A stretch of 64,000 nt of DNA from Gammaproteobacteria bacterium (GTDB lineage: Bacteria; Pseudomonadota; Gammaproteobacteria; Pseudomonadales; Pseudohongiellaceae), in NCBI GenBank assembly GCA_008081045.1, contig VMDC01000002.1, positions 124,001 through 188,000 of the forward strand, in the 5' to 3' direction. The position numbers and the translations under genes are program-made. This document shows, piece by piece, positions 917 to 38,301 of the stretch; within the stretch, counting starts at the first letter, position 1; the number at the start of each line of letters is the position of its first letter. The notes below the pieces were generated by a model. The model was given only the letters and a program-made list of their open reading frames with translations. It searched no databases and was not told the origin of the DNA.

Positions 917-2263
917 CTAGTCGTCGCTGCCGGCCAGAGAGCGTTGCTCTCTTTCTCTTCGTTCAGCCAGCAAAGCCTGATAGCCTTCTTCATCAAGATG
1001 GGTGATGGCCAGCCAGGCGTGAGTCATTTCGTCGCCGGTTCGGCTGCCGCCATACACCCACTGATCAGGATCAGGGTTGTTCGGGTTGTTGGCGGTGTTG
1101 TCGTACCATTGTTTCAGTACCAGCACTGCACCCGCCGGCACCAGCGGTGCGACATCAGGTTCATAAATGTGGCTGTGATGCCAGGTGGCACTCCAGTTTG
1201 AGATCTGGCTGATTTCTTCTGTGCGACCGGTTTCCGGATAGAAGATCTCCAGTGATGCCGCATTCATGCGCAGGTGCCCGTGGGGCTGGAAACTGTCGAG
1301 CCGAATGGGATGGTCAAAGCTGTGGAAGCCCTGAGTCATCTGATAACCATTAGGAGGAATAATCAGATCATCCTGCTCTTCAATTCGGTACAGGGCCAGG
1401 TCCTGCTTGTACACGTCGTTGGTCGCTTCGTAGTCCTCTTCGTGGAACCATAAGCCGATCTCAACCACATTGTCTTCGATCATGTCGCCCTGAGCCGTCG
1501 CGCCAACGCCGCCCGGAAACATGTGAATGCTCCACTGGATCATTGCACCTTCAGGCAAGGTTCGGCAGACACCTTCAGGAACCATTTCACCCCATTTGCC
1601 CATGGCGTATTCCGTCAGCATGCCATAGCGTTGGAGTTCGCCTTCTTCATCTTCCATCCAGACACTTGAGTTGGCGTGATGAACCACAGCGGAAGCATCT
1701 CCCCTCGGCTTCACCTGAACGGCCTTGATGCAGCGAGAGGCAGTCATGCCCGGGTCTACGAATTCATTACTCCACAGATCATTACCGCTTGCCGGGATGT
1801 CATATGAGCTGGAAGGTACAATCAGATCAGGCTGACCAAGCTGAGCAGCAAAGTTCCACTCGTTCGGATCTTTAATCTGCGCCGGTGGCGGTGCATTTTC
1901 CGGATCGCCCATCGGGGCGCCGGCTTCTACCCAAGCGACGATCGCATCGATCTCTGACTGCTCAAGGCGCCAGTCGCCGAGCAGATCCTGAATGCCGATG
2001 TGCTGGTCATAAGCATAAGGAGGCATTTCCCGATTGGCGACTCGATAGGAGATCAGCGGCGCCCAGGGCCGCACCTGGTCGTAGTTCTCAAAAGCCATCG
2101 GACCAATGCCGCCTTCCTGGTGGCATACCACGCAATTTTCATTGATGATTCGGCCAATCTCGCCATTGTAGGCCAGTTCGTGGTCGGACTGGGCGGATGC
2201 CTCAGTAGCCCCCGCCAGCAGGGCAAGAGCGGCAATCCCTGACCAAGCTTTAGCGTTTCTCAT
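917..2263 (-). CDS. Exported cytochrome c / PHM-like type II copper monooxygenase (paralog A)
   Basis: This 448-aa protein has a signal peptide (cleavage probably after ATEASA, ~24), one c-type heme site C44-V-V-C47-H48, then a two-lobed copper monooxygenase module like peptidylglycine alpha-hydroxylating monooxygenase. Candidate ligands line up with the PHM sites: H195-H196 and H247 for the first copper (CuH), H328-x-H330 and M413 in GDEM for the second (CuM). All ligands are present, so activity is plausible. The single heme suggests electrons come from a periplasmic cytochrome chain rather than only from ascorbate (inference). The start is fixed by the RBS GGGAG six bases upstream. Close tandem paralog of the gene at 2584-3939, but each has its own terminator. 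The substrate cannot be read from sequence. Confidence 0.85.
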   Translation of the reverse strand: MRNAKAWSGIAALALLAGATEASAQSDHELAYNGEIGRIINENCVVCHQEGGIGPMAFENYDQVRPWAPLISYRVANREMPPYAYDQHIGIQDLLGDWRLEQSEIDAIVAWVEAGAPMGDPENAPPPAQIKDPNEWNFAAQLGQPDLIVPSSSYDIPASGNDLWSNEFVDPGMTASRCIKAVQVKPRGDASAVVHHANSSVWMEDEEGELQRYGMLTEYAMGKWGEMVPEGVCRTLPEGAMIQWSIHMFPGGVGATAQGDMIEDNVVEIGLWFHEEDYEATNDVYKQDLALYRIEEQDDLIIPPNGYQMTQGFHSFDHPIRLDSFQPHGHLRMNAASLEIFYPETGRTEEISQISNWSATWHHSHIYEPDVAPLVPAGAVLVLKQWYDNTANNPNNPDPDQWVYGGSRTGDEMTHAWLAITHLDEEGYQALLAERREREQRSLAGSDD

Positions 2264-2524
2264 AATTCTCTCCCGTTTGATCGTGTGTAGTGGGTCGGAA
2301 ACTGATCGTACTACTTAATTCTTTACTCCTCAGAGTGTACTCCTTAAAACCCCAGTAAAAAAGCGGGAATTTGTTCTATTTTGGTGCGATTTTTCTCCTT
2401 TTATCCGTCCATTCCACCGGAATGCAGAGAATTGGCGCCGCGGGACGGGTTTTCAGGCCATGGGCCATATTTCAGATTCACGCTGGGAGTCGCATGGGTT
2501 GGCTACTTCTGCAACTGACAGGCA
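2264..2524. other. Intergenic region upstream of paralog A
   Basis: With the terminator that follows, this is a 320-base gap between the two tandem copper enzymes. It is AT-rich near the gene and holds AGTGTACT at 2334-2341, one base different from the AGTATACT half-site seen at 38357-38389. No convincing coding region; it presumably carries the promoter of the 917-2263 gene. Confidence 0.4.
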
Positions 2525-2557
2525 TAAAAAAAGGCCGGTTATGACTAACCGGCCTTT
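2525..2557 (-). terminator. Intrinsic terminator after paralog B
   Basis: Twelve-base perfect stem AAAGGCCGGTTA / TAACCGGCCTTT with loop TGAC, preceded on the plus strand by an A run (U run for minus-strand RNA). It ends the transcript of the 2584-3939 gene. Confidence 0.9.
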
Positions 2558-2583
2558 CTGAGATTTGCTCTACCAGCGAGTGC

Positions 2584-3939
2584 TTAGTCGTCGCTGCCTG
2601 CCAGCGAACGCTGCTCGGCTTCGCGACGCTCGGCGAGAAGCTGTTCATAGCCTTCTTCATCGAGGTGAGTCACAGCGATCCAGGCGTGAGACATTTCGTC
2701 GCCCGTGCGGCTGCCGCCATATACCCACTGATCAGGATCAGGGTTGTTGGGATTGTCGGCGGTGTTGTCGTACCACTGCTTGATTACCAGAACTTCACCC
2801 GGTGCCAGCAGTGGAGCCACGTCCGGCTCATAAATGTGGCTGTGGTGCCAAGTTGCGCTCCAGTTGGAGATTTGGCTGATAGACGTGGTTCGGCCTGTCT
2901 TGGGGTCGAATTTCTCAAGCGAAGCCGCGTTCATGCGCAGGTGGCCATGCGGCTGAAAGCTGTCGATTCGAACCGGATGGTCAAAAGAGTGGAATCCCTG
3001 AGTCATCGCGTAGCCATTGGGAGGCACGATCAGATGGCCATTTTCATAGCCTTCACGCAGAGGGTACAGGCGCAGGTCCTGATTGTAGACATCGTTGGTT
3101 TCCTCGTAGTCCTCGTCATGGAACCACAGGCCGATTTCAACAACGTTGTCCTTGATCATACCGCCTTCTGCAGTGGCACCTACACCGCCGGGGAACATGT
3201 GAATGTCCCAGCGGACCAGCGAGTTCGCTGGCATGGTGCGGCAAACACCCTCAGGCATTAATTCACCCCACTTGCCCATGGCATACTCGGTGAGTTGGCC
3301 GTACTGCTGAAGTTCGCCTTCTTCGTCGTAGACGTAGACGTCAGAGTTAGCGTGGTGTACCACGGCTTTTGCGTCGCCGCGAGGCTTCACCTGAACCGCC
3401 TTGATGCAGCGGTTTTCCGCAAGCTGTGGATCAACAAATTCTTTGCTCCACAGGTCGTTTCCGTTCGCCGGAATGTCATAGGCCTGTGAAGGGATAATCA
3501 TGTGTGGCTCGCCAAACATCGGCTCGAAAGTCCAGCCGTTGGCATCTGGCAGGTCTGCCGCCGGAGGCACGATGTCGGTGTCACCCAACGGGGCGCCTTG
3601 CTGGACCCAGGCAACGATGGTGTCGATCTCTTCCTGTTCCAAGCGCCAGTCGCCTTCCAGCTCCTGAATACCGATGTGCTGGTCGTAAGCGTAAGGAGGC
3701 ATCTCCCGATTTTCCACCTTGTACGAAATCAGCGGAGCCCAGGGGCGTACCTGGTCGTAATTCTCAAACTGCATCGGGCCCACACCGCCTTCACGGTGAC
3801 AGACTACGCAGTTTTCGTTGATGATTTTTGCTACATCACTGTTGTAGGTGATTTCGCGGTCTTGAGCGTGGGCACCCAGGCCAATGGTCAGAGCGATGGC
3901 TCCGCCAAGCAGGGTGGTGGTTTGACGCATGTTTTTCAT
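2584..3939 (-). CDS. Exported cytochrome c / PHM-like type II copper monooxygenase (paralog B)
   Basis: This 451-aa protein starts at the ATG ending at 3939, six bases after a strong AAGGAGA; a longer reading to 3969 lacks such a site. It has a signal peptide ending near GLGAHA, a heme c site C44-V-V-C47-H48, and PHM-like copper ligands H195-H196, H247, H331-x-H333 and M416. It aligns almost without gaps with paralog A, differing by a 3-residue insertion near residue 298, and even the C-terminal end (QRSLAGSDD) is the same. A recent tandem duplication with both copies catalytically intact is the simplest reading. Expected site of action is the periplasm. Substrate unknown. Confidence 0.85.
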   Translation of the reverse strand: MKNMRQTTTLLGGAIALTIGLGAHAQDREITYNSDVAKIINENCVVCHREGGVGPMQFENYDQVRPWAPLISYKVENREMPPYAYDQHIGIQELEGDWRLEQEEIDTIVAWVQQGAPLGDTDIVPPAADLPDANGWTFEPMFGEPHMIIPSQAYDIPANGNDLWSKEFVDPQLAENRCIKAVQVKPRGDAKAVVHHANSDVYVYDEEGELQQYGQLTEYAMGKWGELMPEGVCRTMPANSLVRWDIHMFPGGVGATAEGGMIKDNVVEIGLWFHDEDYEETNDVYNQDLRLYPLREGYENGHLIVPPNGYAMTQGFHSFDHPVRIDSFQPHGHLRMNAASLEKFDPKTGRTTSISQISNWSATWHHSHIYEPDVAPLLAPGEVLVIKQWYDNTADNPNNPDPDQWVYGGSRTGDEMSHAWIAVTHLDEEGYEQLLAERREAEQRSLAGSDD

Positions 3940-4161
3940 GCTGGTCTCCTTATTAGGAATATTAGGCAAATCTCAACCGAAAATAGTAATGGGAGGTCAG
4001 GGAAAAGTCCATTTTTACCGGGCTTTTTACGGGACATTGTGCAACAAATTGCAACAGTCTGAAGGGCACGGAATACGGGGGGTTGAGGGGATTTTCCCGT
4101 TGTAGGGAGGGTAAATGTGATCGCCCAGCAGCGAAATCAGCGACAGTTCTCAGGCCAAAAC

Positions 4162-4190
4162 AAAACGACCGGCGCTAGGCCGGTCGTTTT
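4162..4190. terminator. Intrinsic terminator after the 4206-5144 gene
   Basis: AAAACGACCGG pairs perfectly with CCGGTCGTTTT around a 7-nt loop; A and T tracts on both sides make it usable on either strand. Confidence 0.9.
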
Positions 4191-4205
4191 GCTGCAAATT
4201 TCCGG

Positions 4206-5144
4206 CTAGCGGACGGTGACTCGCTGATAGACGTTAGTCCAGCAGCATTGGTCGCCATTCGAACTGTCGGGGGCCTCATGGATATCCACTTTGGTGCTGA
4301 TAATGTAGTCGCCCGGAGCTGAGAACGTCGCATAGACGCGGGCTGTGCCGGCAGGGCCGGGAATTTCCAATTCATTGGCAGCTGGCGCTCGCCAGAAGTT
4401 GTAGCGTCGGTCGTTTTCGTTATACGGGTTTTCCGCCGCCGGGGTGGACTCGTGCGGAGTGAACTCCACGTCACCCGGGCCCTGATACTTCATGAAGGCC
4501 ACGCCCATCGGCAATGGCTCTCCGAAACGGGGATCAGTGGGGTCGCGTTCCGCTGGGTCCGATGCATTGACAACCAGCTCAACTCGCTCGCCCACGCTCA
4601 CTGCGCCGCCCGGATAGTCTCCGATCTGTGCATACAGCCCGGGCAGTTGGTCACCGCCTTCGCCGAGCCCAACTCGTGGCTGCAGAGCCCCCTGCGGCCG
4701 GGGACGGATGAAATCCAGTTCATAGGCAGATGCCCCATAACGACCGGGCACTTTAAGCTCTTCATTGCTACCGGTTTTGAGATACCACCACACGTCCGTC
4801 TCACGTTCTGCGTTAGGCACGGTGACGGTGAAAGCGCCAGTGGAGCGACCAGGTGGAAAATAGGTGGGCTGAATACCATCCCATTTTGCCGGCTCGATGC
4901 GATTGGCTTCCCCAAGTGGGATGTCCACTCCTTCTTCATTACGATTGATGATGCCGAAAGAGAAACTGGTGGTCCCGTCTTGATTGTCTATCCAGCCCTC
5001 GAGTACCGGTATGATAGGCAGCCCGTCGGGTGGCGTAAGGCTCAGGAAGCGGCCATTATCAGCCGACTGTGCCGATACTGAAATCGCGGACAGGGCAAGT
5101 AGAGTCGATGCGGCAATCGTCAGGAAGTTTTTCATCGTTAGCAT
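4206..5144 (-). CDS. Exported protein of unknown function linked to the copper enzymes
   Basis: The preferred start (ATG ending at 5144) follows GGAGAA at suitable spacing; an ATG at 5159 has no ribosome site. The 312-aa product has a signal peptide ending near ISVSA-QS and a beta-rich, aspartate/proline-rich mature part. Near the C-terminus lies the vicinal-cysteine motif DQCCWTNVYQRV, and histidines are few (FTPHES, VDIHEA). It is the first of three co-directional exported genes (4206, 2584, 917), each ending in its own terminator, so they may be co-regulated rather than co-transcribed. I do not recognise a catalytic family. A binding or accessory role for the neighbouring copper enzymes is a guess from position only. 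Confidence 0.6.
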   Translation of the reverse strand: MLTMKNFLTIAASTLLALSAISVSAQSADNGRFLSLTPPDGLPIIPVLEGWIDNQDGTTSFSFGIINRNEEGVDIPLGEANRIEPAKWDGIQPTYFPPGRSTGAFTVTVPNAERETDVWWYLKTGSNEELKVPGRYGASAYELDFIRPRPQGALQPRVGLGEGGDQLPGLYAQIGDYPGGAVSVGERVELVVNASDPAERDPTDPRFGEPLPMGVAFMKYQGPGDVEFTPHESTPAAENPYNENDRRYNFWRAPAANELEIPGPAGTARVYATFSAPGDYIISTKVDIHEAPDSSNGDQCCWTNVYQRVTVR

Positions 5145-5376
5145 GGATGTATTCTCCATTTAGTCTAGTCGTTTGAGCTGATTCAGTGATTGATTGAACG
5201 GTTGCTCATTCTCGTCTGTCGGCAGCGGCAGTCCGGTGGGACAGAGAGGCGCACTTTATCGTGTGAGTTTAAGTTGCGCACTGTCAATCAGGACAGCTAG
5301 GATAGCGACCAATTCCATTGGCGTCCACATTATTGAAGCGGTAAACAGTGCCTTTATGTTGTTGTTTTTTTACAAA

Positions 5377-7098
5377 ATGTTACATATTCCGAGCCGGGTT
5401 TTCCTGAAACCAGCCCGGCAGCGCGCGTGGCTACTTTTTTCGTTGGTCTGCTGCGCGACGTTCAGCGGGGCCCTCCAGGGAGCCCTCGATCGGGTCGGTG
5501 ACTTTGCGCTGCTGGACGATCGTGGAACTTTTCACCAGCTGAGTCGTTACCAGCACCGGGCTGCACTCGCCGTGATGGCGTATGACAGCAGCTGTGCCGA
5601 GATGGGCAGCATGCTTGACCGCTTTGCGGCTCTGGACTCTTCGTATAGAGACCAGGGTATTGACTTCGTCCTGTTGGATGCAAGAGATCTTGGTCGGGAG
5701 GTCGCCCGTGCACTCGATCTGCCACTTCCTCTGCTGGAAGATGATGGGCAGTTGGTGTCGGAGACTCTCGAAATCACCCGGGCTGGCGATGTGCTCGTGC
5801 TCAACCCACAGAGGCTCTCTGTTTACTACCGCGGAGACAGCAGTGAGGCTCTTGACGGCGCGCTGAATGCGGTAGTGGACGGTCGTGTGGATGATACGAT
5901 GACTGTCGAAACAGCGGGTTGCTCGATTGATTTCCCAATCCGGAGCCGCCATCTTGAATCGCCTCCAGACTATGTGTCAGAAGTGGCACCTATAGTGATC
6001 GAGAACTGTCTGGATTGTCATGTGCAGGGTGGGGTAGGTCCGTTTGCGATGGACTCCTACATCATGCTGCTCGGGTGGTCACCCATGATTCGCGAGGTGC
6101 TGCTGAATAAGCGCATGCCGCCTATGCAGGTCGATCCCTACGTCGGACACAGTGCCAGCGCCAGAGGAGTCTCTAAGCAGGATTTGCAGACCCTGATTCA
6201 CTGGATTGATGCAGGGGCTCCGCGGGGTGAGGGGGAGATCGATCCGCTGGAGCAGCACATGAAATCGGACGATGGGTGGGTGCTTGGAGAGCCGGATTAC
6301 ATTGTTAAGGGTCCTGAACATTCGATACCCTCTACCGGCGTTCTTGATTACTACTACAACAATATTGAGTTGCCCTTTACCGAAGACAAGTGGGTAAAAG
6401 CGGTGCAGTACCGCGCGGGTGATCCGTCTGTGCTTCACCATCTGATCACTTTTGTGTCCGAACCCGAAGAGGATTTCTGGGGGGCAGAGCGTGACAGCAC
6501 CTCAGTCAGCCGTCGCTTCGTTGCTGGCTACATCCCCGGTAAAGATAATGTCTATGAGTTTCCTGAGGGGGTCGGCACTTTTATCCCGGCAGGTCACCGC
6601 CTGTCGATGCAATTTCACTACGTCACGAATGGTCAATCGACCGTAGATCAGACTCAACTGGGGCTGTATTTCAGCGACCAGCCCTTACCACGAGAGCAGC
6701 GAGTCCGAGCGATCGGCACGCGCTTTGTGCTCCCTCCTAATACACCGGAATTTGCACTGCAAGCCAGCCACTCGCTTGACGAGAACATCGTGATTACCGG
6801 TGTACGTGCGCGAATGAATTATCGCGGCAGCAGAATGCGCTTTGAGGTGGAAGCACCGAGCGGCGTCAGCCAGCAGTTGTTCAGTGTGCCGGCGTTTAAC
6901 TATGGCTGGCAGCCTCACTACCTGCTCGACAAGCCGGTTTCTGTCAGTGCGGGTTCGACGCTTCGTGTAGCGGGCGCTTTGGATAATTCAGTGTCGAACC
7001 CTACCAATCCAGATCCGGACCTTGAAATCCCATTTGGTTTCAACAGTTGGGAAGAGATGTTCACGGGATATTTTACTTACTATCAGAGCTTCGACTGA
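5377..7098 (+). CDS. Redoxin-like / cytochrome c / PHM-like fusion with a broken CuM site
   Basis: The start chosen here gives 573 aa, matching the 576-aa homolog at 33430-35160, and places an Arg-rich n-region plus hydrophobic core (AWLLFSLVCCATFSGA) at the front; an ATG at 5356 is possible. Domains: redoxin-like fold ~38-175 with one cysteine (C73) instead of a CxxC pair; heme c site C211-L-D-C214-H215; PHM-like module ~300-570. CuH ligands H354-H355 and H414 are present and the late Met survives in EEMF. The HxH pair of the CuM site is replaced: the homolog reads H-M-H-Y-R-G, this one R479-M-N481-Y-R-G. It may therefore bind only one copper and act as an electron carrier, copper sensor or pseudoenzyme (inference). 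Its stop overlaps the start of the next gene. Confidence 0.75.
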   Translation: MLHIPSRVFLKPARQRAWLLFSLVCCATFSGALQGALDRVGDFALLDDRGTFHQLSRYQHRAALAVMAYDSSCAEMGSMLDRFAALDSSYRDQGIDFVLLDARDLGREVARALDLPLPLLEDDGQLVSETLEITRAGDVLVLNPQRLSVYYRGDSSEALDGALNAVVDGRVDDTMTVETAGCSIDFPIRSRHLESPPDYVSEVAPIVIENCLDCHVQGGVGPFAMDSYIMLLGWSPMIREVLLNKRMPPMQVDPYVGHSASARGVSKQDLQTLIHWIDAGAPRGEGEIDPLEQHMKSDDGWVLGEPDYIVKGPEHSIPSTGVLDYYYNNIELPFTEDKWVKAVQYRAGDPSVLHHLITFVSEPEEDFWGAERDSTSVSRRFVAGYIPGKDNVYEFPEGVGTFIPAGHRLSMQFHYVTNGQSTVDQTQLGLYFSDQPLPREQRVRAIGTRFVLPPNTPEFALQASHSLDENIVITGVRARMNYRGSRMRFEVEAPSGVSQQLFSVPAFNYGWQPHYLLDKPVSVSAGSTLRVAGALDNSVSNPTNPDPDLEIPFGFNSWEEMFTGYFTYYQSFD

Positions 7099-14410: not shown

Positions 14411-14427
14411 GGGAATAAGTCCTGTTT

Positions 14428-14865
14428 TTAACTGAAGAGTGTGCGCCAGTTTTCCGGTGCGCGGGTTACTTTGCCATCGACATCAGTCCAGATATGTCGG
14501 GTGTATCCTGTCACCAGAATATCGCCAGATTCAGGAGCGATGACCTCATAGTGAAAGGTTAGGCTGCGGCTTCTGTTTTCGCCGATACGGGTGCGGATGC
14601 GGACTCGTTCGCCATAGCGGCTGCTGCCGACGTAGCGCAGCTGGGCCTCAGTGACGGGAAGCCGATACCCGCTGGCTTCAATCAGTGCGTAATCACTACC
14701 CAGGTCCCGCATGTATTGACTGCGCCCTTCTTCAAAGTAGACCAGATAGTTGGCATGATGAACCACGCCCATGGCATCAGTTTCTGCGTAGCGCACGGGA
14801 AACTCGGTTTCTCCGATCTCATTAGTCTGGCTGTTACTTATTGAAGAATTCATGGAAGAACTCAT
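14428..14865 (-). CDS. Acyl-CoA thioesterase, hot-dog fold (YbgC/4-hydroxybenzoyl-CoA type)
   Basis: The core reads RYAETDAMGVVHHANYLVYF, the active-site helix of the 4HBT/YbgC thioesterases with the catalytic Asp in ETDAMGVVHH. From the ATG ending at 14865 the protein is 145 aa, close to family size; a TTG start at 14952 would add 29 residues through a repeat tract. It hydrolyses short or aromatic acyl-CoA thioesters in the cytosol. It is the first gene of a minus-strand operon followed after 17 bases by the arylformamidase-like hydrolase and kynureninase, so an aromatic-CoA substrate such as anthraniloyl-CoA is conceivable but unproven. Start choice is uncertain because no clear RBS is present. 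Confidence 0.8.
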   Translation of the reverse strand: MSSSMNSSISNSQTNEIGETEFPVRYAETDAMGVVHHANYLVYFEEGRSQYMRDLGSDYALIEASGYRLPVTEAQLRYVGSSRYGERVRIRTRIGENRSRSLTFHYEVIAPESGDILVTGYTRHIWTDVDGKVTRAPENWRTLFS

Positions 14866-16120: not shown

Positions 16121-16197
16121 CTGACAGGAGCGTAGTTGTTTTTCACACACGGCAATTTTTCTGACAAACAGTCACGTAGGAGCATGAAGGAGTAGAC

Positions 16198-28049: not shown

Positions 28050-29228
28050 CTAGCTTTTGCTGAGCGCATCCATTGCGCTTTCAACGCCTCCCGGTTGATG
28101 GGGGAAATCCGCGATTTTCAGGCCCATTTCCACACCACTCAGCGTGCCCATGAGCATCAGGTCGTTGAAGTCACCAATATGGCCAATGCGGAAGATTCTG
28201 TTTTTAAGTTTGCCCAGACCCGTCCCCAATGACATGTTGAATCTCTCACGAATGATCATTCTTAAATCATCCGCATCGAAGCCTTCGGGCACAAAGACCG
28301 CTGTCGTTGAATTGCAATATTCCTCTGAATTCATGCAGACATTTTCCAGCCCCCAGGCATTGACTGCCGCACGGGTGGCTGCGGCCAGACGCGAGTGACG
28401 GGCGAACACCTTGTCGAGCCCCTCTGCAAGCAACAAATTTAACGCTTCATCCAGACCGTAGAGAAGGTTGGTACTGGGCGTGTAGGGGAAATAGCCTTTG
28501 GCGTTATTGCTTGCCATGGCTTCCCACTGCCAGTAGGAGTGGTGGCTCTGATTCATTCTGGAGCGCGCCAGCGCCTGTTCGCTGACTGCATTGAAACTCA
28601 ATCCCGGTGGCAGCATGAGCCCCTTCTGTGAGGCGCTGACCGTCACATCCACTCCCCAGTCATCATGCAGAAACTCTGTGCAAGCGAGAGAGGAGACAGC
28701 ATCCACCATGAGTAAAGCAGGGTGCCTTACTTTGTCTATCGCGCGCCTGATATCGCCGATTCGACTGGTGACACCGGTTGATGTTTCCGTGTGGACGGCC
28801 AGAACGGCCTGTATTTCATGCTTGCTGTCCTCTGACAGCTTTTCCTCCACGACTGACGGATCGACCCCGTGGCGCCAGTCTCCCGGTATCCACAAGATGT
28901 GAAGCCCCAGCTTTTCAGCGACTTCTTTCCAAAGAGTGGCGAAGTGTCCGGTTTCAAAAGCCAGTACTTTATCTCCGGGTGACAGGCAATTAAGCAGGGC
29001 GCATTCCCATCCACCGGTACCGGATGCTGGATAGATAAAAATAGAGGACTCAGTGTTGAATACGGGCGCGAGCTTCTCCAGTAATCTGAACGTCAGGGCC
29101 GGAAATTCCGGGCCACGGTGATCAATGACCGGTTGAGCCATGGCCCTGAGCACACTTTCCGGAACATTAGAGGGTCCGGGAATTTGCAGAAAATGGCGGC
29201 CGGGCTGATAGGCTCCATCAATACTCAT
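28050..29228 (-). CDS. Class V aminotransferase, serine/alanine-glyoxylate type (copy 1)
   Basis: A 392-aa PLP enzyme. HFLQIPGPSNVPESVL at the N-terminus, GTGGWECALLNCLSPGD, the HTETSTGV loop, MVDAVSSL (PLP Asp) and the Schiff-base lysine K202 in SASQKGLMLPPGL are those of serine-glyoxylate/alanine-glyoxylate transaminases, in particular the serine-cycle type. Cytosolic. It is encoded just upstream of gntP (41-base gap) on the same strand, so import and amino-transfer of a related compound may be coupled. A second member lies at 60939-62114 and differs in the N-terminal motif (LMGPGPSDV) and PLP loop (SGTQKCLS). Confidence 0.88.
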   Translation of the reverse strand: MSIDGAYQPGRHFLQIPGPSNVPESVLRAMAQPVIDHRGPEFPALTFRLLEKLAPVFNTESSIFIYPASGTGGWECALLNCLSPGDKVLAFETGHFATLWKEVAEKLGLHILWIPGDWRHGVDPSVVEEKLSEDSKHEIQAVLAVHTETSTGVTSRIGDIRRAIDKVRHPALLMVDAVSSLACTEFLHDDWGVDVTVSASQKGLMLPPGLSFNAVSEQALARSRMNQSHHSYWQWEAMASNNAKGYFPYTPSTNLLYGLDEALNLLLAEGLDKVFARHSRLAAATRAAVNAWGLENVCMNSEEYCNSTTAVFVPEGFDADDLRMIIRERFNMSLGTGLGKLKNRIFRIGHIGDFNDLMLMGTLSGVEMGLKIADFPHQPGGVESAMDALSKS

Positions 29229-29257: not shown

Positions 29258-31522
29258 TTAATTTCCCGGGCGGTATTCCCGCTCCAGGTTGGCTTCGATG
29301 TCGTCACGATAGAACAGGACATCACGAAATTCGCCATTTGCATACATTTCTGCCTGATCGTCGAAATGCGGCGATTCTGGATCGCTTTGCAAGCCGCCGA
29401 CGGTAATGGCTTTGGCTCTTAACGGACGCCCAAACTCCACGGCTGCGACAAAGCTGTTGCCACTGGTGCCGTACATGCGTCGGGTGCCCGGATAGGTACG
29501 CGCGCCAAATGAAGCCAGTGCTCCCCATCTGCCTGAGGCAAAACCGACCGGAACGCTTGGCGCATTGTCGTCAAAATTCTGCACCAGATCTCCGGTGATG
29601 CGCTGATAGCGATTGATCTCTCCCCATGGAACCTGCCAAGAACCAAAATCCTGGGATAGTGTGTCGGCTGCCTGATTCAGGGCGCCGAGAAGCTGATTCG
29701 GGGAAGCATTATTCACCATGTAGTCATAGATGTTGATGTCCGCCGCTGCGGCATCGGCCCGGACCATTTCCATGAGCGCTTCAGCCCAATAAACAGCCAG
29801 TGACGTCTCAACCGAATCCACACCAAAGTTTGTGTCCCAACCTCTGAGTAAATCGATGTAATCGAGAATCTCCCCGGTGAGAGTGCTCTGCAGCTGCACG
29901 GCGTTGCCGTCTTCATCGACAATGCTCGGGCTGTCCACCGCAGTGATGAGCAAAAGTCTGGGAATCAGATCATCAAAAAACGGCAGAGCCGGATCATAAG
30001 CTGCCTCAATTAACGAATCGAGCGTAAAGTCGTTCTTGCCCTCCAGAACTCGCACGGCGTGAACGCCGCGCGGATTTTCCGGATTGTTCGCCATATAGGC
30101 TGGGTAATCTTCCGGTTGCGGGCTGTTACCGGGACCCGCGGCGTTGAACGGTGTATTGTTTGTGTTCTGAATCCAGCCGCTGTCCGGATTGAACACGGTG
30201 ATCATTTCACTGACTGCGTGCAGAGGTCCCCAGTCGGTTGCCGGGTTACTGCCATCGAGCGGACTGTTCCAGTCAAAATTTGGATCTCTTCTGGGAATAA
30301 AGTTGCCGTGCCAGTAGGCAATATTGCCCTCGCTGTCCGCATACACGGTGTTGTTGGAGGAATTGGTGCGCAGCTCCATGGTGGCGGCAAATTCTTCGTA
30401 GTTGCCGGATTTGGTCCTGCCATAGGACTGAGACAGTGCCTTGACAGGCTCCTGCATTAGGCTGATGGAGACCCATTTCCCGTCTTCCTCCCGAATGATA
30501 GGTCCGTGATGGGTGTAATAGGCAGTAACTTCAATTTCCGACATCGCGTCGCCGTCGCGAAAAGGGAGATGGATCAGTTTTTCCTCGAGACGCCGCAATT
30601 CGTCTCCGTACTGATAGTAGTAACCGTCATCCTGCTGGACGATGGTCTCGAGGTATTCATCGATCGCATCGGCTCTGCTGGAGGTGTGCATCCATCCGGT
30701 ATTCTCGTTGAAACCCTGGTAGATGAAAAATTGACCCCAGGTAACCGCGCCGTAGGCGTTCAGCCCTTCTTCGCTCACCATGTGCAATTCTGAGCGAAAG
30801 AAAAATGAAGTGTGAGGGTTGATCAAAAACAGCGCGTTCCCGTTCGCCGTGTTTTTAGGCGCAATCGAGAAGCCGTTTGACCCTCTTGGCTCGCCGTCAA
30901 AAAGGTCTTCTGCCACGGCTACCATTGATGTCGGGTCATAGAAGTCTTTCAGTCGGCTGATGTTTACCCGCTCGATGTCGCCACCGATGCTTCCTTCCGA
31001 GAAAGTGAGCGCCATCCATGGCTCGAATTTTTTGATTACCAGGGGTTCGACATCAGGATGCGTATACAGGTAATAGTTAAGACCATCCGCGAATGCGACC
31101 ATCAGGTCCTTGAGCCAGGCAGGGCTGGTCTCAAATTGTGCCTGCATCTCAACCGGGTCGATAAACAGCTTCATGCGAAGATCCCGATAAAGCTGAGTTT
31201 CTCCTTCCGCTTCAGCCAGCCTGCCCATGGCGTTGATGTAGTTTGTCTCCAGTCGATAAAAGTCATCTTCGGCTTGGGCGTATAGCGTGCCGAAGACTGT
31301 GTCAGCGTCGCTGACGCCATAAATATGGGCAATACCCCAAGTGTCTCTGAGAATAGTGACTTTGTCAGCGGTGGCTTCCCAGCGGGCGATCTCTTCATCG
31401 GAAAACTGGGGGGAAGGCCTGCTGGTTTCTGCCAGGCTTTCTGTCGGGTTGCGGTTATCCTGTCCGCAGCCAATGAGCGCAACACTGAGAAGTGTGACTG
31501 CAATAAAGTTTTTTACCGGCAT
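29258..31522 (-). CDS. Penicillin-acylase-family amidohydrolase lipoprotein (acyl-homoserine-lactone acylase type)
   Basis: The ATG ending at 31522 has AGGCGG upstream and opens a lipoprotein signal with lipobox ALIGC (C19); longer readings lack this. The 754-aa Ntn-hydrolase precursor has the autoprocessing site R-G-S215-N-G-F-S, where S215 becomes the beta-chain nucleophile, then NPHTSF (beta-chain His) and FNENTGWMHTSS. Such enzymes remove acyl chains from penicillins, acyl-homoserine lactones or lipopeptides in the periplasm. It follows an amidohydrolase gene by 26 bases. A role in degrading foreign quorum signals or N-acyl amino acids is possible; the substrate cannot be read directly. 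Confidence 0.88.
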   Translation of the reverse strand: MPVKNFIAVTLLSVALIGCGQDNRNPTESLAETSRPSPQFSDEEIARWEATADKVTILRDTWGIAHIYGVSDADTVFGTLYAQAEDDFYRLETNYINAMGRLAEAEGETQLYRDLRMKLFIDPVEMQAQFETSPAWLKDLMVAFADGLNYYLYTHPDVEPLVIKKFEPWMALTFSEGSIGGDIERVNISRLKDFYDPTSMVAVAEDLFDGEPRGSNGFSIAPKNTANGNALFLINPHTSFFFRSELHMVSEEGLNAYGAVTWGQFFIYQGFNENTGWMHTSSRADAIDEYLETIVQQDDGYYYQYGDELRRLEEKLIHLPFRDGDAMSEIEVTAYYTHHGPIIREEDGKWVSISLMQEPVKALSQSYGRTKSGNYEEFAATMELRTNSSNNTVYADSEGNIAYWHGNFIPRRDPNFDWNSPLDGSNPATDWGPLHAVSEMITVFNPDSGWIQNTNNTPFNAAGPGNSPQPEDYPAYMANNPENPRGVHAVRVLEGKNDFTLDSLIEAAYDPALPFFDDLIPRLLLITAVDSPSIVDEDGNAVQLQSTLTGEILDYIDLLRGWDTNFGVDSVETSLAVYWAEALMEMVRADAAAADINIYDYMVNNASPNQLLGALNQAADTLSQDFGSWQVPWGEINRYQRITGDLVQNFDDNAPSVPVGFASGRWGALASFGARTYPGTRRMYGTSGNSFVAAVEFGRPLRAKAITVGGLQSDPESPHFDDQAEMYANGEFRDVLFYRDDIEANLEREYRPGN

Positions 31523-31548
31523 AACCGCCTCCGACTGTCTGATTTTCG

Positions 31549-33195
31549 TTAGTTTTTTACTGAGACTCTTACCCCATCCACCCAAGTCTCTTGCACCAGA
31601 GTTTGCCACATCTGGGTGAGAGGTTGTGTGAAGATATCCCGGTCGAGCAAGATGAAATCGGCCTTTTTGCCGGGCTCCAGAGTACCAAGATGTGCTTCCT
31701 GGTGTCCCGCGTAAGCGGCATCGATGGTGAAGCTCGCCAGGGCTTCTTCGAGCGTCATGCTCTCCTCAGAATACCAACCACCCGGTGGGTTGCTTTGCTG
31801 ATCCTGACGAGTGACGGAGGCATGCAGGCCATAAAAGGGGTTCGGGTGCTCAACCGGAAAATCGGAACCATTGGCAATGCGGGCTCCGGAGTCCAGAAGT
31901 TTTCGCCAGGCATAAGCACCCTGAATTCGTACCGGACCGAGTCGGTCTTCTGCCATGTTCTTGTCGGAAGTAGCGTGAGTCGCCTGCATTGACGGGATCA
32001 CGCCAAGCTCAGCAAATCGGAGGATGTCTTCGTAGCGCAGGATTTGCGCATGTTCGACGCGATGGCGTCGGTCTTTAGAATCAGTTTCGTTGATCAGTCT
32101 CTCGTAGTTATCCAACACCCGCATATTGGCGTCATCTCCAATAGCGTGCGTGTTCACCTGAAAGCCTGCATTCATGGCAGCCCGCATCAAAAATTCCAGC
32201 CGTTCGTCGTTATACCGCAGCAGACCGCGATTGCCGGGAGCATCATGATAATCCTCAATCAGCGCGGCGCCGCGACTGCCCAGAGCGCCATCTGCCACTA
32301 CTTTGACGCTCTCAACCGCAAATGTCATATCCTCGCTGTGAAAAAAGCCTTCTGCCAAGCGGTCCTGATAGAGAGGGTCGGAGGCGGCAATCATTGCGTA
32401 AACACGAACGGGCAGTGGCGCTTCGCCCACCAGTTCCTTGTAGGCAGCAATCGTGCTGCTGCCGATACCGGCATCATGAACACTGGTAATGCCATAAGTC
32501 GCCAGGGCATTCAGAGCGGTGGTCAGAGCAACTTTCTCCTCTTCGAAAGACGTGGCCGGGATCTGCTCGCGGATGTAGGACATCGCGGTGTCGATAAATA
32601 CTCCGGTTGCCTTACCGTTCTCATCGCGGACGATCTGTCCACCGACAGGATCTTCGGTGTCATCGCTGATGCCGGCCAGTTCCATCGCCAGAGAATTTGC
32701 CCAAGCCGCGTGGCCGTCTACTCGGGTGAGCCAGACTGGTCGGTCACTGACGACAGCGTCAAGGCTGGCTGCCTGGGGAAATTCATTGCTGTCCCACAGT
32801 ACCTGATTCCAACCCCGGCCCTGTATCCATTCGACAGCGGGATTGGCTTGCGCAAAATCCAGCACACGCCCGGCCGCTTCAGACTCCGACTCTGCACCGA
32901 CCAGGTCGACCCGCAGCAGTGAAAGCCCGTAAGACAGCACATGGCCATGTGCGTCTATCAGGCCCGGAATCATCGTTTGCCCGTTGCCATCAATGAGATG
33001 GTCAGGCTCTTGCGGTAAGGGGTCCGAGTCGCCGTAAACGGCATCAATTCTGTCATCGGTGAACTGAATAGCCGAAAACTGCAGCAGCTGAAAATCCCGG
33101 TCCAGCGTGTAGCCATTCACATTGAAGTACAGAGTCGTTTCGGCCACTGTTGCCGAGCAAAGCAGTGACAGGAGCAAAGGAGTCAGTTTATTCAT
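31549..33195 (-). CDS. Exported YtcJ-like amidohydrolase
   Basis: A 548-aa metal-dependent amidohydrolase from the ATG ending at 33195 (a TTG two codons earlier is possible). It has a signal peptide (LLLSLLCSATVAET), the metal motif DAHGH after MIPGL, the VHDAG strand, VNTHAIGDDA, RVEHAQIL and the C-terminal ANGSDFPVE with the catalytic Asp, in the YtcJ order. The GTLEPGKKADFILLD tail is the usual second half of the small beta domain. It probably hydrolyses an amide or carbamate in the periplasm and is co-transcribed with the penicillin-acylase lipoprotein (26-base gap), which suggests sequential attack on an N-acylated compound. Confidence 0.85.
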   Translation of the reverse strand: MNKLTPLLLSLLCSATVAETTLYFNVNGYTLDRDFQLLQFSAIQFTDDRIDAVYGDSDPLPQEPDHLIDGNGQTMIPGLIDAHGHVLSYGLSLLRVDLVGAESESEAAGRVLDFAQANPAVEWIQGRGWNQVLWDSNEFPQAASLDAVVSDRPVWLTRVDGHAAWANSLAMELAGISDDTEDPVGGQIVRDENGKATGVFIDTAMSYIREQIPATSFEEEKVALTTALNALATYGITSVHDAGIGSSTIAAYKELVGEAPLPVRVYAMIAASDPLYQDRLAEGFFHSEDMTFAVESVKVVADGALGSRGAALIEDYHDAPGNRGLLRYNDERLEFLMRAAMNAGFQVNTHAIGDDANMRVLDNYERLINETDSKDRRHRVEHAQILRYEDILRFAELGVIPSMQATHATSDKNMAEDRLGPVRIQGAYAWRKLLDSGARIANGSDFPVEHPNPFYGLHASVTRQDQQSNPPGGWYSEESMTLEEALASFTIDAAYAGHQEAHLGTLEPGKKADFILLDRDIFTQPLTQMWQTLVQETWVDGVRVSVKN

Positions 33196-33378
33196 GGTCA
33201 ATTGTCAGGAATGCGGTCAGCGTTTCGTTTTGGGTCGGTGGGGCGAGTCTACCACAGCCCCATCGGCTGCAAACGCATCGATTGGCAGCGTATAACCATA
33301 TTCCGGCATTGAGGGCAGTTGTTGAAAGAATGCCGGCCACACTGGCAAGGTGTCTGGCCGGCTGATTTCCCAAGACAT

Positions 33379-33429: not shown

Positions 33430-35160
33430 CTATTCGCCGCCCGGATTACCGGCTTCAACGTACCGGTAGAATCCGAAAAACATTTCCTGCCAGGTCTGTT
33501 CACCCCATGACAGGGTTTGCGACGCATCCGGATTAGAAGGATTGAACTCGGAATTATCAAAGGTGCCGGTAAACACCATTTCGGTTCCCGCCGGCACAAA
33601 CTTGGGTTCTTTAAAATCGTACACCTTCTGCCAGTTGAACTGGTAGTTGGGAACGTTCAGCACTTCTTCACTCGAGCCGTCTGGATAGACCAGGGTGAAA
33701 TTGGCGTCATGGCCCCGGTAATGCATGTGGGGACCGAGCATGGTGATGTAGGAATCCTTTCTGAACTTTGCTGTGGCAACCATCTCGTGGCGCTGCGCGA
33801 ACGGCGGGATGTTGATGTCCAAGTCCGCGGCAGATCCGCCCAGAACCTGACGCTCTGGCTCTTCATCCCACAGATAGAGTGCAATCTCAGAGGCGTCTGT
33901 CGTTTCTTTCCCGGAGGTGGTGTAGTGAAGCTGGAGGAAGAGCCCTCCACCGGCCTTAAGCGGGAAGCCCGAGTTCTCTGGGTAGGTGTTGATTTCGTTG
34001 CCCGGCGCATAGGCACCCAGCCCAATCCCCTGATTGAGAATTTCAAACTGGTTCATTCCGTCGGGACCATAGGCAAAAGCGATGATGTGGTGCAGAACGG
34101 TCGGATCGCCTGCTTCAAACTCGATTGCCTTGACCCAGATATCTTCTTCAAGATCCAGCGCAACCGGTATGTTGCGATAGTCCTGAATTCCGGTCGCCGG
34201 GATCTGCTGAGGAGGAACCGGAATCACCATATCCGGCTCACCGTAGGCCCACTTTACCAGCTCAGGAGAATATTCGGCGAGCGGATCGGCGTCGTCTGTA
34301 TTTTTCGCCCCGTTCTCGATCCAGTTAACCAGTGTCTGGGTCTCTTCAACCGTAATATGAGCAACATCGCGAAAGTCGTGAACGTACTCGTTATCAATCT
34401 GGCCCGGAGGCATGCGCTTAGTGTAGAGAACCTCGCGGATCATGGGAGACCAGCCCTGGACCATCTGGTGGCTGTTCATGGCGAAGGGTGCGATTCCACC
34501 TTCCATATGGCAGCTCACGCAGCGTTCTTTCAGAATAGGTGCGACGTCATTGGCGTAGGAAATGTCTTCAACAGCTGCCAGAGTGATCGCGTCGCCTTTC
34601 GATGAGGTCTGTCTGGCGGTGACGGTCTCGCCTGCCAGAAACTGGCTGAGCGCGTCAGCTGCATAATGATCTGAAGCCCGTCGCGACCTGGTGTCCTCAG
34701 CCCAGCGATCATTGAGCGCCCCGCGGAAGACCAGCTCAAGCGCGGTCGGGTCAAGAATGACTACGTCGGTTGCGCGCTCAATGCCGAGTTCGCGGGCCAC
34801 TAACTGTGTCTCATCCATCAGAACAGGCAGCTCGATATCGGCATCATCTGCAGTTTCCCGAATTTCTGCCTTGTCCGTTTCACCGGTAGAGTCGATGAAG
34901 TAAAAGCCGACGTTTTGCCCTTCGAACTGCGTGCTGAGGTCGGCCAGATCTGAGGCCGCACGGCGAACGTCTCTGCTGTCCTCATGGGCCATGAACACGA
35001 TGGCATCGAAATTAGCCTGACGACTCAGCTGAAAGAATTTTCCGTGCTGATCGATCAGTGAAAAGTCGCTGATGCGCTCGCCCGCACTGACAGGGATGCT
35101 TGCCAAGGTCGCTGCAGCAAAAACCGCAGTCAATCTGAGCAGGGATGAAACTGTATGCAT
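33430..35160 (-). CDS. Exported redoxin-like / cytochrome c / PHM-like copper monooxygenase fusion
   Basis: A 576-aa protein, signal peptide ending IPVSAGE, RBS AGGAGA ahead of the ATG. Domain order: AhpC/redoxin-like fold (~28-178) that has lost every cysteine (the active-site loop reads MAHEDSRDVRRA), heme c site C214-V-S-C217-H218, then the PHM-like module. All copper ligands are present: H357-H358 and H412 for CuH, H478-M-H480 and M560 (QEMF) for CuM. The redoxin part may be a docking or structural domain, while heme feeds electrons to the copper centre (inference). The homolog at 5377-7098 keeps one redoxin cysteine but has lost the CuM histidines, so the two may have divergent or paired roles. 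Confidence 0.85.
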   Translation of the reverse strand: MHTVSSLLRLTAVFAAATLASIPVSAGERISDFSLIDQHGKFFQLSRQANFDAIVFMAHEDSRDVRRAASDLADLSTQFEGQNVGFYFIDSTGETDKAEIRETADDADIELPVLMDETQLVARELGIERATDVVILDPTALELVFRGALNDRWAEDTRSRRASDHYAADALSQFLAGETVTARQTSSKGDAITLAAVEDISYANDVAPILKERCVSCHMEGGIAPFAMNSHQMVQGWSPMIREVLYTKRMPPGQIDNEYVHDFRDVAHITVEETQTLVNWIENGAKNTDDADPLAEYSPELVKWAYGEPDMVIPVPPQQIPATGIQDYRNIPVALDLEEDIWVKAIEFEAGDPTVLHHIIAFAYGPDGMNQFEILNQGIGLGAYAPGNEINTYPENSGFPLKAGGGLFLQLHYTTSGKETTDASEIALYLWDEEPERQVLGGSAADLDINIPPFAQRHEMVATAKFRKDSYITMLGPHMHYRGHDANFTLVYPDGSSEEVLNVPNYQFNWQKVYDFKEPKFVPAGTEMVFTGTFDNSEFNPSNPDASQTLSWGEQTWQEMFFGFYRYVEAGNPGGE

Positions 35161-35531: not shown

Positions 35532-36326
35532 ATGTTCCCATTGAAGCGCGTTTTGAGCCACAACTTCCTTCGTTCTGGTATGGCTTGTGCCCTTGTGGTG
35601 TCTGGTCTGTTGACCCTTCCCGCTCAGGCGCAGATCTATCGCTTCGGCCATTGCCTGTTCGGATGCCCGGAAGGCTCCAGCGGCAACCAGATTCTGGTGA
35701 GATCGGCCTACACCCTGTCGTACGATGAAGGCAGGAAATCGGCAGTCTGGGCAGCGTATGAAGTGACGCCCGGCTCGATTGGCATTGCTTCCAGTTTATC
35801 GCGCGATCTGATCCGGGATGATTGGGTTTCGGAATCGCTTACCGCTGCAGATCTCGCGGCGCTGGCGGAGCAGGAATACGTGCGGTCACAGCATGTGCCA
35901 CTGGTCAGCTTTGCGGGAACTCCTTACTGGCGTGAAGTCAACTTTGCCTCGAACGCCACGGTGCGCAGCCGGAGTCTAAGTCAGGGAGCCTGGTACGGGC
36001 TTGACTGGTCGCTTCGAAATTTGGTGAATCGTGAAGCAGCGGTTTATGTCTACACTGGAGCGATCTTTGATCCCGAGGCGGAACCAAGGCTACTGACAGA
36101 GGACAGCGGGTATCGTATCCCGGACAAATTTTTCAAAATTGTGCTGACGGAAGACGGACGTGCCGCTGCGTTTCTTTTTCCGCAAGACACTGCAGTGCAC
36201 GTTCACCACTGCGACTTGCGTGCTGGCATTGAAGAGATAGAAGCGCTGAGCGGGTTGGATTTTTTTCCGGCGGCAACGGTGGAAGTTGAACTGTCGCTAT
36301 ATCCTATGCTCGGCTGCCGCAGCTGA
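35532..36326 (+). CDS. Exported DNA/RNA non-specific endonuclease-fold protein with degenerate catalytic motif
   Basis: A 264-aa protein with signal peptide (VVSGLLTLPAQAQ). The middle and end follow the NUC1/Serratia nuclease plan: Y-x-x-S-Y-D, AVWAAYEVTP, then the position of the DRGH motif, then FASN141 and W-Y-G-L-D158, and VYVYTGAIFD. At the catalytic site the sequence is Y-V-R-S-Q-H121-V-P: the general-base histidine remains but Asp/Arg/Gly of DRGH do not. The metal-ligand Asn is kept. It may be a weakened nuclease, a nuclease with altered chemistry or a binding protein. It converges with the 36337-36894 gene, 10 bases apart. Confidence 0.7.
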   Translation: MFPLKRVLSHNFLRSGMACALVVSGLLTLPAQAQIYRFGHCLFGCPEGSSGNQILVRSAYTLSYDEGRKSAVWAAYEVTPGSIGIASSLSRDLIRDDWVSESLTAADLAALAEQEYVRSQHVPLVSFAGTPYWREVNFASNATVRSRSLSQGAWYGLDWSLRNLVNREAAVYVYTGAIFDPEAEPRLLTEDSGYRIPDKFFKIVLTEDGRAAAFLFPQDTAVHVHHCDLRAGIEEIEALSGLDFFPAATVEVELSLYPMLGCRS

Positions 36327-36336: not shown

Positions 36337-36894
36337 TTATTCCAGCTCGAGCAGGAAATAGTCGTCTCGTAAAAGCTCGCGCACCAGTCGCTCAAGTGAG
36401 GCATTGACCGCGCTGCCAAGGCCTTCCTCCACCGGAACGCGCCCGCGCCCGAACAGCGTGGTCGACCAGATGCTGCGGCCACCGCCGCGAAGCTCAATGG
36501 CAGTGCGAATGGTGAGCTGTAGGTTGGGAACTCCTGCCCTGTCAACCGTTTCCAGTTCAGAGCTGAGCAAAGTGCCGACAATTTCCATGTCAGCACCCTC
36601 GGCCACAAATTCGACACCGCCCTTGTTGAAGCCCTGCTCGAAGGCGTCTCTGATCAGATTTGCCAGAGGCAACTGTGCCCGATCGTCTCCGACAATGGTA
36701 TTTGGATCGGCAACACCACGCTCGTCAGCGAAAGGCGCTAAATGCAGGCTCGGGCTGATACTGCCAATATTCACATTGCGCTCGTAGGTAAAGTCAATAG
36801 TCAGCTCATCAGCGACCACCGGTTTCAGAGCAAGTGAGCTAAGGCATACCAAAAAGGTGAAAGTAAGTCTGGTCATGCTGGTCATGCTGGTCAT
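36337..36894 (-). CDS. Exported hypothetical protein (185 aa)
   Basis: Start placed at the first of three in-frame ATGs (MTSMTSMTR) because GAGGG lies six bases upstream. Signal peptide LTFTFLVCLSSLALKPVVA. The mature part begins with a short strand TIDFTYERN, then holds LANLIRDAFEQGFNKGGVEF and paired strands ADMEIVGTLLSSE...LQLTIRTAIEL, resembling the layout of small curli-assembly/YajG-like periplasmic proteins that contain a 'low-copy outer-membrane' fold, but no lipobox is present. Function unknown. Confidence 0.6.
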   Translation of the reverse strand: MTSMTSMTRLTFTFLVCLSSLALKPVVADELTIDFTYERNVNIGSISPSLHLAPFADERGVADPNTIVGDDRAQLPLANLIRDAFEQGFNKGGVEFVAEGADMEIVGTLLSSELETVDRAGVPNLQLTIRTAIELRGGGRSIWSTTLFGRGRVPVEEGLGSAVNASLERLVRELLRDDYFLLELE

Positions 36895-36895
36895 G
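36869..36895. repeat. Three perfect 9-bp tandem repeats at a gene start
   Basis: CTGGTCATG occurs three times without interruption, giving three consecutive possible ATG starts and the N-terminal repeat MTSMTSMTR in the 36337-36894 gene. Copy changes would keep the frame. Confidence 0.85.
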
Positions 36896-37046
36896 AAAGT
36901 CCCTCGGCTCAAGCGGCAGGCGAATCTGTTATCAGTGAGAATAATTCCTGAGTCTCGTGGGTTCAAGGCTTGCACCCACGGGCATCGATCTTCTTTGACT
37001 GAAAAGAGTATCCCGGTATCAGTTTTTAATCCGGATTGAAGGCATG

Positions 37047-37082
37047 AAAAAGCCCGGCTCTCGTGACAGAGAACCGGGCTTT
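37047..37082. terminator. Intrinsic terminator after the PAL-like gene
   Basis: AAAAAGCCCGG and CCGGGCTTT form the stem, with the additional inner pairing TCTC/GAGA; the A tract gives the U tract for minus-strand RNA. Confidence 0.88.
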
Positions 37083-37104
37083 GCTTAGCCGGTCTGGCTG
37101 TGGC

Positions 37105-38301
37105 TTACAGCTCTGATGCTGGCCAGGTCGGTGCGCGGTCTCTGACGGTGACCGGGCGCATACCCTGATACAGGAACTTCTGTACCCGCTTGCCCTCATA
37201 GGTCTCCGTGGTATAGATGTTACCCTCGGAATCCGTGGCAATGCTGTGCGGTGCGTAGAACAGTCCGGGCTGACGTCCACCGTCACCAAAGGTGTACAGC
37301 ACCTCCATTGACGCACGATCAATGATGGAGATCTTGAAATTCTGACCGTCTGCCAGGTAGATGAATTCCTGATCTTCATCCGGTGAGAACGCGATATCCC
37401 AGGTAGATCCCTGAGCAAGCGTTGCCGGGTTGTAGATATGTTCGCTCACGAAGGTTCCGTCGGGGCGGAAAATCTGCACCCGGTCAGCTCCTCGGTCGCA
37501 CACATAGATCAGACCGTCATTGGAAGGCTCTGCGCAGTGAACCGGTCCGCGGAAAACGTCCGGACCTGGTTGACCCGGCGTGTAGGTATCATCGGCGTCG
37601 TCGTCGATGTCCGTGCTGCCGTAGGCGCCCCAGTAACGCTTGAACGCACCGGTCGCCACGTCGACCACTGCAACCCGCTTGTTGACGTAGCCGTCGGCAA
37701 AGTAGGCTTCACCGGCGTCTTCATCGATGGCGATTTCAGCAACGCGGCCAAATGCAGTTGTACTGTTGCTGTCGAATTCCTCGCCGGGAACTCCGACCGT
37801 TCGAATGTATTCGCCGTCCCGTGTGAAAACCAGCACGTGAGAATCAGGACCGCCGTTGCCACCAATCCAGACGTCGCCGTTGGCAGCGACTTCAATGCCG
37901 TGGTTTGACTCAGGCCACTGGTACGGGGCTCCCTCGACCGGACCGCCCCACGCGTTGATCAGATTGCCTTCGATGTCGTACTCAAGGATAGGAGGCGCCG
38001 GTGTGCAGCATTCTGCCACGCCGAGTGCCAGTCCTATTTCAGTGCGTCCACCGAACATGTTTTCAGTGTTTCTGTGTACCGTAAAGATGTGATCTCTGTC
38101 ATCCACATCCACGCCAATGGTGTTACCGGTGATCCAGTGATTAGGGAGTGGCTTGGGCCACAGCGGATCGACCAGGAAGGCCGGAGCCATTACGTCATTG
38201 CTGGCTGCAATGGTAGGTTCCTGAAGCTTTGATTGACCGATCCCCAGCGCAACCAAGCTTGCTGTCAGGAATGAGCCGATCGCCAGTTTCTTGTTTATCA
38301 T
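37105..38301 (-). CDS. Exported NHL beta-propeller, peptidyl-alpha-hydroxyglycine lyase (PAL)-like
   Basis: A 398-aa protein, RBS AGGAGAAG before the ATG, N-terminal signal or anchor (FLTASLVALGIG). The NHL repeats fit the six-bladed propeller of the PAL half of animal PAM. Matching elements in order: FTVHR77 (PAL catalytic Arg533 region), NH134GIEVAANGDVW (Zn His585), YFADGY205VNKRV (Tyr654, the PAL DGYCNSR segment), PVH255CAEP...VCDRGADRVQIF (His690) and APH352SIATDSEGNIY (His786); only catalytic Met784 differs (Ala350). PAL cleaves alpha-hydroxyglycine amides produced by PHM, and PHM-like proteins occur on the same segment. A vicinal Cys pair (AECCTP) is extra. An SMP30/other NHL function is the alternative. 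Confidence 0.75.
   Translation of the reverse strand: MINKKLAIGSFLTASLVALGIGQSKLQEPTIAASNDVMAPAFLVDPLWPKPLPNHWITGNTIGVDVDDRDHIFTVHRNTENMFGGRTEIGLALGVAECCTPAPPILEYDIEGNLINAWGGPVEGAPYQWPESNHGIEVAANGDVWIGGNGGPDSHVLVFTRDGEYIRTVGVPGEEFDSNSTTAFGRVAEIAIDEDAGEAYFADGYVNKRVAVVDVATGAFKRYWGAYGSTDIDDDADDTYTPGQPGPDVFRGPVHCAEPSNDGLIYVCDRGADRVQIFRPDGTFVSEHIYNPATLAQGSTWDIAFSPDEDQEFIYLADGQNFKISIIDRASMEVLYTFGDGGRQPGLFYAPHSIATDSEGNIYTTETYEGKRVQKFLYQGMRPVTVRDRAPTWPASEL

Follow-up and report, generated by a model that had tools for sequence, protein, structure and literature searches.

A 64,000-nucleotide stretch of contig VMDC01000002.1 (henceforth 'the window'), from a 2.75 Mb genome of the Pseudohongiella/OM182 group, encodes bacterial relatives of both halves of animal peptidylglycine alpha-amidating monooxygenase (PAM), namely the copper hydroxylase PHM and the zinc lyase PAL. 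As a previous sequence-only reading had placed them, four exported heme proteins with a C-terminal PHM-like module (P0001, P0002, P0004 and P0006) and one separate exported NHL propeller resembling PAL (P0007) are present in the window (Table 1). We consider it slightly more probable than its negation that the periplasmic heme-PHM P0006 and the PAL-like lyase P0007 together carry out a two-step oxidative cleavage of C-N bonds, by which N-substituted compounds would be scavenged. P0001, P0002 and P0004 belong elsewhere: together with the exported protein P0003 they constitute a PHM module of their own.

Structure comparison of the predicted model of P0006 revealed that residues 195-576 form the two-domain jelly-roll fold of PHM, and this match was unambiguous; P0001, P0002 and P0004 were assigned to the same family by alignment. 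The top Foldseek row was human dopamine beta-hydroxylase (4zel; E 1.9e-13), a member of the same superfamily, and the PHM half of animal PAM (1phm, 5wja and 1sdw) shares with P0006 the fold, the HH/H and HxH/M ligands and export from the cell, at 16-18% identity. By sequence, the copper ligands of P0006 are H357, H358, H412, H478, H480 and M560. The CuH site (an adjacent His pair and a third His) is found in the PHMs of the window and the CuM site (HxH and Met) in P0001, P0002 and P0006, which thus have all six ligands, in agreement with the expectation that the set would be complete in three proteins; in P0004 the HxH motif is RxN. Unlike PHM of animal PAM, P0006 has no lyase half in its chain and is fused to a heme c domain, and its relatives often also carry an AhpC/TSA-like domain. 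The CxxCH motif and a later Met (M250, within MPP, in P0006) are invariant in 17/17 rows of alignment A4, so that the P0006 family has the motif of a c-type cytochrome, with this Met as the probable distal axial ligand. The kinship to PHM was invisible to profile methods and is displayed by the fold alone: Pfam gave P0006 18.4 bits against a cut-off of 23 for Cu2_monoox_C and did not list Cu2_monooxygen, NCBIfam contained no family for P0001, P0002, P0004 or P0006, and the A3 profile found no PHM among PDB sequences. The possibility that the AhpC/TSA-like domain acts as a thiol donor through a CxxC pair was rejected, since the pair occurs in 0/52 redoxin-PHMs; 16/52, P0006 included, have no Cys at all in this domain, and most of the remainder have two single Cys. 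The host genome contains 13 heme-PHM matches and one redoxin-only match, and 61 genomes of the same genus contain from 2 to at least 24 matches to P0006 each, redoxin-only matches included.

The propeller P0007 has six residues of PAL type (R77, H134, Y205, H255, R270 and H352), all invariant across 20 diverse rows, and the Arg, Tyr and three His that had been read from the sequence are among them. R77, H134 and Y205 aligned to PAL Arg533, His585 and Tyr654, and H255, R270 and H352 were matched to His690, Arg706 and His786 by position only; in PAL, such residues make up the three zinc His and the catalytic Tyr and Arg. Three lower-scoring paralogs (323-348 bits; L200, L206 and L207) lose H134, Y205, H255 and H352 together, as would be expected of a functional set, and of two paralogs with similar scores one keeps six (L204) and the other five (L205). 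P0007 differs from PAL in being a separate exported protein, with 19% identity, which is paired with a HupE_UreJ_2 membrane protein; PHM and PAL-like protein are thus encoded by two genes and not by one bifunctional PAM gene. The closest named match to P0007 is 100% identical and comes from uncultured Pseudohongiella sp. isolate AG-899-E05.

The genes of the two families are linked. A P0007-type propeller was found in 57 of the 61 same-genus genomes (a fragment in G008 was not counted), and in at least 44 of these 57 a PHM starts within 7 kb of it on the same contig, for which the chance expectation is about 8% for each propeller if a 3 Mb genome has 18 PHMs; several of the 13 other genomes have PHM and propeller on different contigs. 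In the window and 20 further stretches chosen for holding both families, several of which end at contig ends, the locus is nearly constant: HupE_UreJ_2 is present in 21/21, as are PAL-like propellers (one to three per locus), CstA is almost always kept (Table 1), the P0006 PHM is usually present, and one or two PHMs usually adjoin CstA (none does in the window), with GGT (6/21) and M19 dipeptidase (4/21) as occasional extras. Twenty-three propellers lie in loci where core genes are not annotated (two are on a 3.2 kb contig, and L142 and L154 carry a HupE reading frame); a plain heme-PHM is found near six of them, at distances of 40, 69, 338, 1269, 1576 and 2213 bp, and near a further two at 4-5.5 kb. 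In the cultured relative LSUCC0112, locus L150 contains PAL, HupE and CstA together with a PHM. In a tree of all 135 rows, the PHMs near PAL are spread over several clades and both architectures (redoxin-PHM and plain heme-PHM), with the near-PAL label biased because most loci were fetched through PAL.

The two families also co-occur at the genome level. In 199 genomes of a second phylum, presumably Acidobacteriota from the label Vicinamibacteria of the genome that holds locus L148, heme-PHM was detected in 41 (E up to 1e-20), PAL-like in 32 (1e-30) and both in 26. Heme-PHM was present in 23/28 genomes with a strict PAL match (E<1e-100) versus 18/171 without one (Fisher p 1.5e-14); after folding eight genomes whose hits were near-equal into one, the only correction made for kinship, the figures were 16/21 versus 18/171 (p 3e-10). 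About ten candidates per genome entered this test. The PAL alignment A2 includes a 28%-identical row (L013) without some of the six residues, and the strict matches counted have E 1.5e-128 or better, beyond the 4e-114 of L013 itself. Of 23 genomes reached via PAL loci, 18 have heme-PHM (E up to 1e-8; G381 only at 1.4e-19), many of which, judged by record title and PAL identity, appear related to the group of the window. Together with the linkage across the genus, these counts uphold the co-occurrence that the sequence-only reading had set as a check. As a separate observation, the 4.2 Mb genome with L148 (G386) has 57 heme-PHM profile matches (E up to 1e-8, some maybe partial) and 38 first-look PAL candidates, an extreme expansion.

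We propose that P0006 and related proteins act in the periplasm as copper monooxygenases of the PHM/dopamine beta-hydroxylase superfamily with a cytochrome c of their own. Electrons from the respiratory chain would pass through the covalent heme to CuH and on to CuM, with heme c in the same chain taking the place of ascorbate as electron source. CuM would activate O2 and a C-H bond beside nitrogen would be hydroxylated, after which P0007, as a PAL-like zinc propeller, would cleave the resulting hemiaminal (carbinolamide) to an amide or amine and an aldehyde. In this scheme the folds, ligand residues, heme motif, linkage and co-occurrence are observed, and the electron route, metal content, order of reaction and substrate are inferred; the purpose would be scavenging of N-substituted compounds rather than hormone amidation. 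For a substrate of the N-acylglycine or N-substituted glycine type, glyoxylate would be the aldehyde released, and the class V aminotransferase encoded nearby could convert it back to glycine. The nearest solved relative of this enzyme is serine-glyoxylate aminotransferase (E 4.5e-108), a kinship that fits glyoxylate as product without proving it; the aminotransferase also resembles BhcA, below the cut-off of the BhcA family in NCBIfam, and relatives of it occur in 8/80 fetched loci.

Several findings weigh against the proposed pairing of P0006 and P0007. Heme-PHM was not detected in 5/28 strict-PAL genomes of the second phylum or in 5/23 genomes with a P0007-type propeller, and across phyla the PAL-like gene is most steadily accompanied by HupE_UreJ_2: in 20 loci of the second phylum, HupE adjoins PAL in 11, and the fetched stretch includes a PHM as well as PAL in 6. 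The host genome has 13 heme-PHMs and one close PAL-like protein, so most of its PHMs lack a PAL of their own. Among 321 sampled Gammaproteobacteria genomes, a full heme-PHM was found in 5 and a PAL-like match in 2 (at most six candidates were scored per genome, and six further PHM matches covered the heme part only); four genomes besides G000 have a full heme-PHM without a PAL-like match (E up to 1e-30), and one shows the reverse, PAL-like without any PHM match, but both families are so rare in this sample that it is uninformative as a test of pairing. An alternative is that two unrelated functions share the locus, with the heme-PHMs hydroxylating or oxidising small molecules by themselves, in the manner of dopamine beta-hydroxylase, and the propeller working with HupE_UreJ_2, for example in metal uptake or another lyase or lactonase reaction. 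Dopamine beta-hydroxylase needs no lyase partner and carries a DOMON domain where P0006 has heme c, and its mode of action may suit those PHMs without a neighbouring PAL. This explanation gains from the 13 heme-PHMs for one close PAL-like protein, from loci L145, L149, L152, L154 and L155, where the PAL-like gene adjoins HupE in genomes without detected heme-PHM, and from the P0001/P0002/P0004 module with P0003, which has no PAL. We nevertheless regard it as possible rather than likely, since the propeller has kept the PAL catalytic residues, PHMs of several clades adjoin PAL-like genes (in loci with the fetching bias noted above) and the families co-occur across genomes. With respect to HupE_UreJ_2 itself, a His stands at the likely signal-peptide cleavage point in 19/22 aligned rows of the protein beside PAL (AH[DE]IP exactly in 13); such a mature N-terminal His, together with the invariant membrane His/Asp/Glu, would suit a copper or zinc importer.

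True peptide alpha-amidation, in which a split bacterial PAM would act on glycine-extended exported peptides, appears very improbable, although both PAM halves are present and linked. PHM has Arg240 two residues before HxH, where it binds the glycine carboxylate; at this motif position, located without a residue-level structural alignment, P0006 has Gly and P0001 has Gln. The Gly of P0006 would argue against glycine-extended peptides as substrate, and also counts against the two-step reaction proposed above. The neighbouring genes encode hydrolases, transporters and metabolic enzymes, and the peptide-amidation part of the sequence-only reading is not supported (no search for precursor peptides was made). 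Bacterial oxidative amidation does occur in pathways for ribosomally synthesized and post-translationally modified peptides, with unrelated enzymes (PMC12636437). Even less probable is that P0007 is an ordinary TRIM-like NHL scaffold with PAL residues arising by coincidence from its repeats, as the six residues are invariant over 20 diverse rows and three paralogs lose four of them jointly whereas L204 keeps six and L205 five. The comparison of the propeller with other NHL proteins gave a divided answer: in the VIA-align rows on which it rests PAL was the top fold match, but with a Z score tied with TRIM NHL domains, and sequence searches ranked Thin/TRIM71 or Brat above PAL, so that the residues and not the fold carry the case for PAL; the tie and this ranking also weigh against the main proposal.

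The 917-7098 region lies about 30 kb from the propeller P0007, and no sign of dependence between the two was found. Treating P0001, P0002, P0004, P0006 and P0007 as one system over 917-38301, as first suggested, was therefore dropped: the PAL-like gene sits with HupE_UreJ_2, CstA and P0006, whereas P0001, P0002 and P0004 sit with P0003. This module is its own unit because P0003 adjoins PHMs across loci and the orthologs of P0004 are conserved. Among the 30 best P0003 matches, whose loci were fetched (the window's included), a PHM lies within 1.5 kb in 29 and on both sides in 24; the remaining locus, L233, is cut to 2.8 kb. No family of Pfam or NCBIfam was assigned to P0003, which has seven matches in the host genome. 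P0001 and P0002 are 73% identical, and P0004 is divergent to P0003 and P0002. In P0004, both His of the HxH motif at CuM are replaced, by Arg and Asn, and its 14 fetched orthologs, from 14 genomes and with 55-92% identity, have [RK]x[NS] at this site in 14/14 and keep the heme, the following Met, the CuH ligands and the late Met. This pattern suggests that P0004 may be a pseudo-PHM that acts as an electron carrier. A joint reading, in which a respiration-driven bacterial counterpart of PAM (a cytochrome-c-bearing PHM family with a dozen or more copies per genome, several clades of which are paired with a PAL-type zinc lyase) stands beside a second unit where P0004, having kept heme, CuH and a redox-like domain but not the CuM ligands, would serve P0001 and P0002, with P0003, as an electron-delivery or docking subunit, is in our estimate tentative and more doubtful than not. 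We know of no PHM-family system with a dedicated protein reductase, and P0004 would provide the first if the electron-delivery reading were true.

The folds and the chemistry described here are already known; what is new is the heme fusion, the split of PHM and PAL, the copy number, the conserved member without CuM and the bacterial linkage. A bacterial oxygenase with a dedicated hemiaminal lyase is known in MgdH/MgdL, which N-dealkylates methylguanidine, although, unlike P0006 and P0007, this pair consists of a 2-oxoglutarate dioxygenase and an unrelated lyase; its authors state that PAL and MgdL have no sequence homology and that PAL is the sole similar activity known to them (PMC12508155). 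PHM and PAL are also separate, and soluble, in planarians (PMC5461114). No study of bacterial heme-PHM, its pairing with PAL, or PAL in bacteria was found among titles and abstract starts of the open-licence literature, a word search of PMC6529398 returned no mention of 'bacteria', 'prokaryot' or 'archaea', and one of PMC8371827 likewise gave no hit. A linked, split bacterial PHM/PAL pair with a cytochrome would inform ideas on how peptide amidation arose and would name an enzyme route for C-N bond breakage in an uncultured marine clade. The heme-PHM would illustrate how a type II copper monooxygenase can draw its electrons from respiration instead of ascorbate, and bacterial PHMs would provide material for studying electron transfer from one copper site to the other. 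The conserved P0004, which lacks CuM, is a naturally occurring case in which the CuH site can be tested by itself.

Table 1. Features of the window discussed in the text; locus counts refer to the 21 stretches holding both families.
Feature	Description	Position	Strand
P0001	heme c and PHM module, six/six copper ligands; separate module	917..2263	-
P0002	heme c and PHM module, six/six copper ligands; separate module	2584..3969	-
P0003	exported protein of a family without name, PHM partner	4206..5159	-
P0004	AhpC/TSA-like domain (weak match), heme c, PHM module; CuH intact, CuM HxH to RxN	5377..7098	+
Aminotransferase	class V	28050..29228	-
Acylase	penicillin-amidase fold, NTN-type; present in 11/21 loci	29258..31609	-
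Amidohydro_3 hydrolase	downstream of P0006; present in 15/21 loci	31549..33201	-
P0006	signal peptide, cysteine-free AhpC/TSA-like domain, CxxCH heme c, two-domain PHM module	33430..35160	-
Endonuclease	DNA/RNA non-specific endonuclease family; kept in 20/21 loci	35532..36326	+
Small exported protein	conserved, no Pfam match; kept in 19/21 loci	36337..36975	-
P0007	PAL-like six-bladed NHL propeller; N-terminal membrane anchor or signal	37105..38301	-
HupE_UreJ_2	membrane protein with exported N-terminal domain, divergent from P0007	38554..39921	+
CstA	CstA family protein, which we take to be a transporter; kept in 20/21 loci	40153..41877	+

With respect to the other genes of the window, the nearest solved relatives of the acylase are cephalosporin/glutaryl acylases. 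Adjoining the glyoxylate-type aminotransferase are a YdiJ/GlcD-type FAD-FeS dehydrogenase and a GntP permease (23728-26616 and 26635-28008), which perhaps belong to 2-hydroxyacid or glycolate metabolism. The interval 12318-19877, between the two PHM modules, may contribute to a different catabolic set: its genes encode a kynureninase-like enzyme, an esterase, a thioesterase, a nitroreductase and a 3-hydroxyisobutyrate dehydrogenase-like protein.
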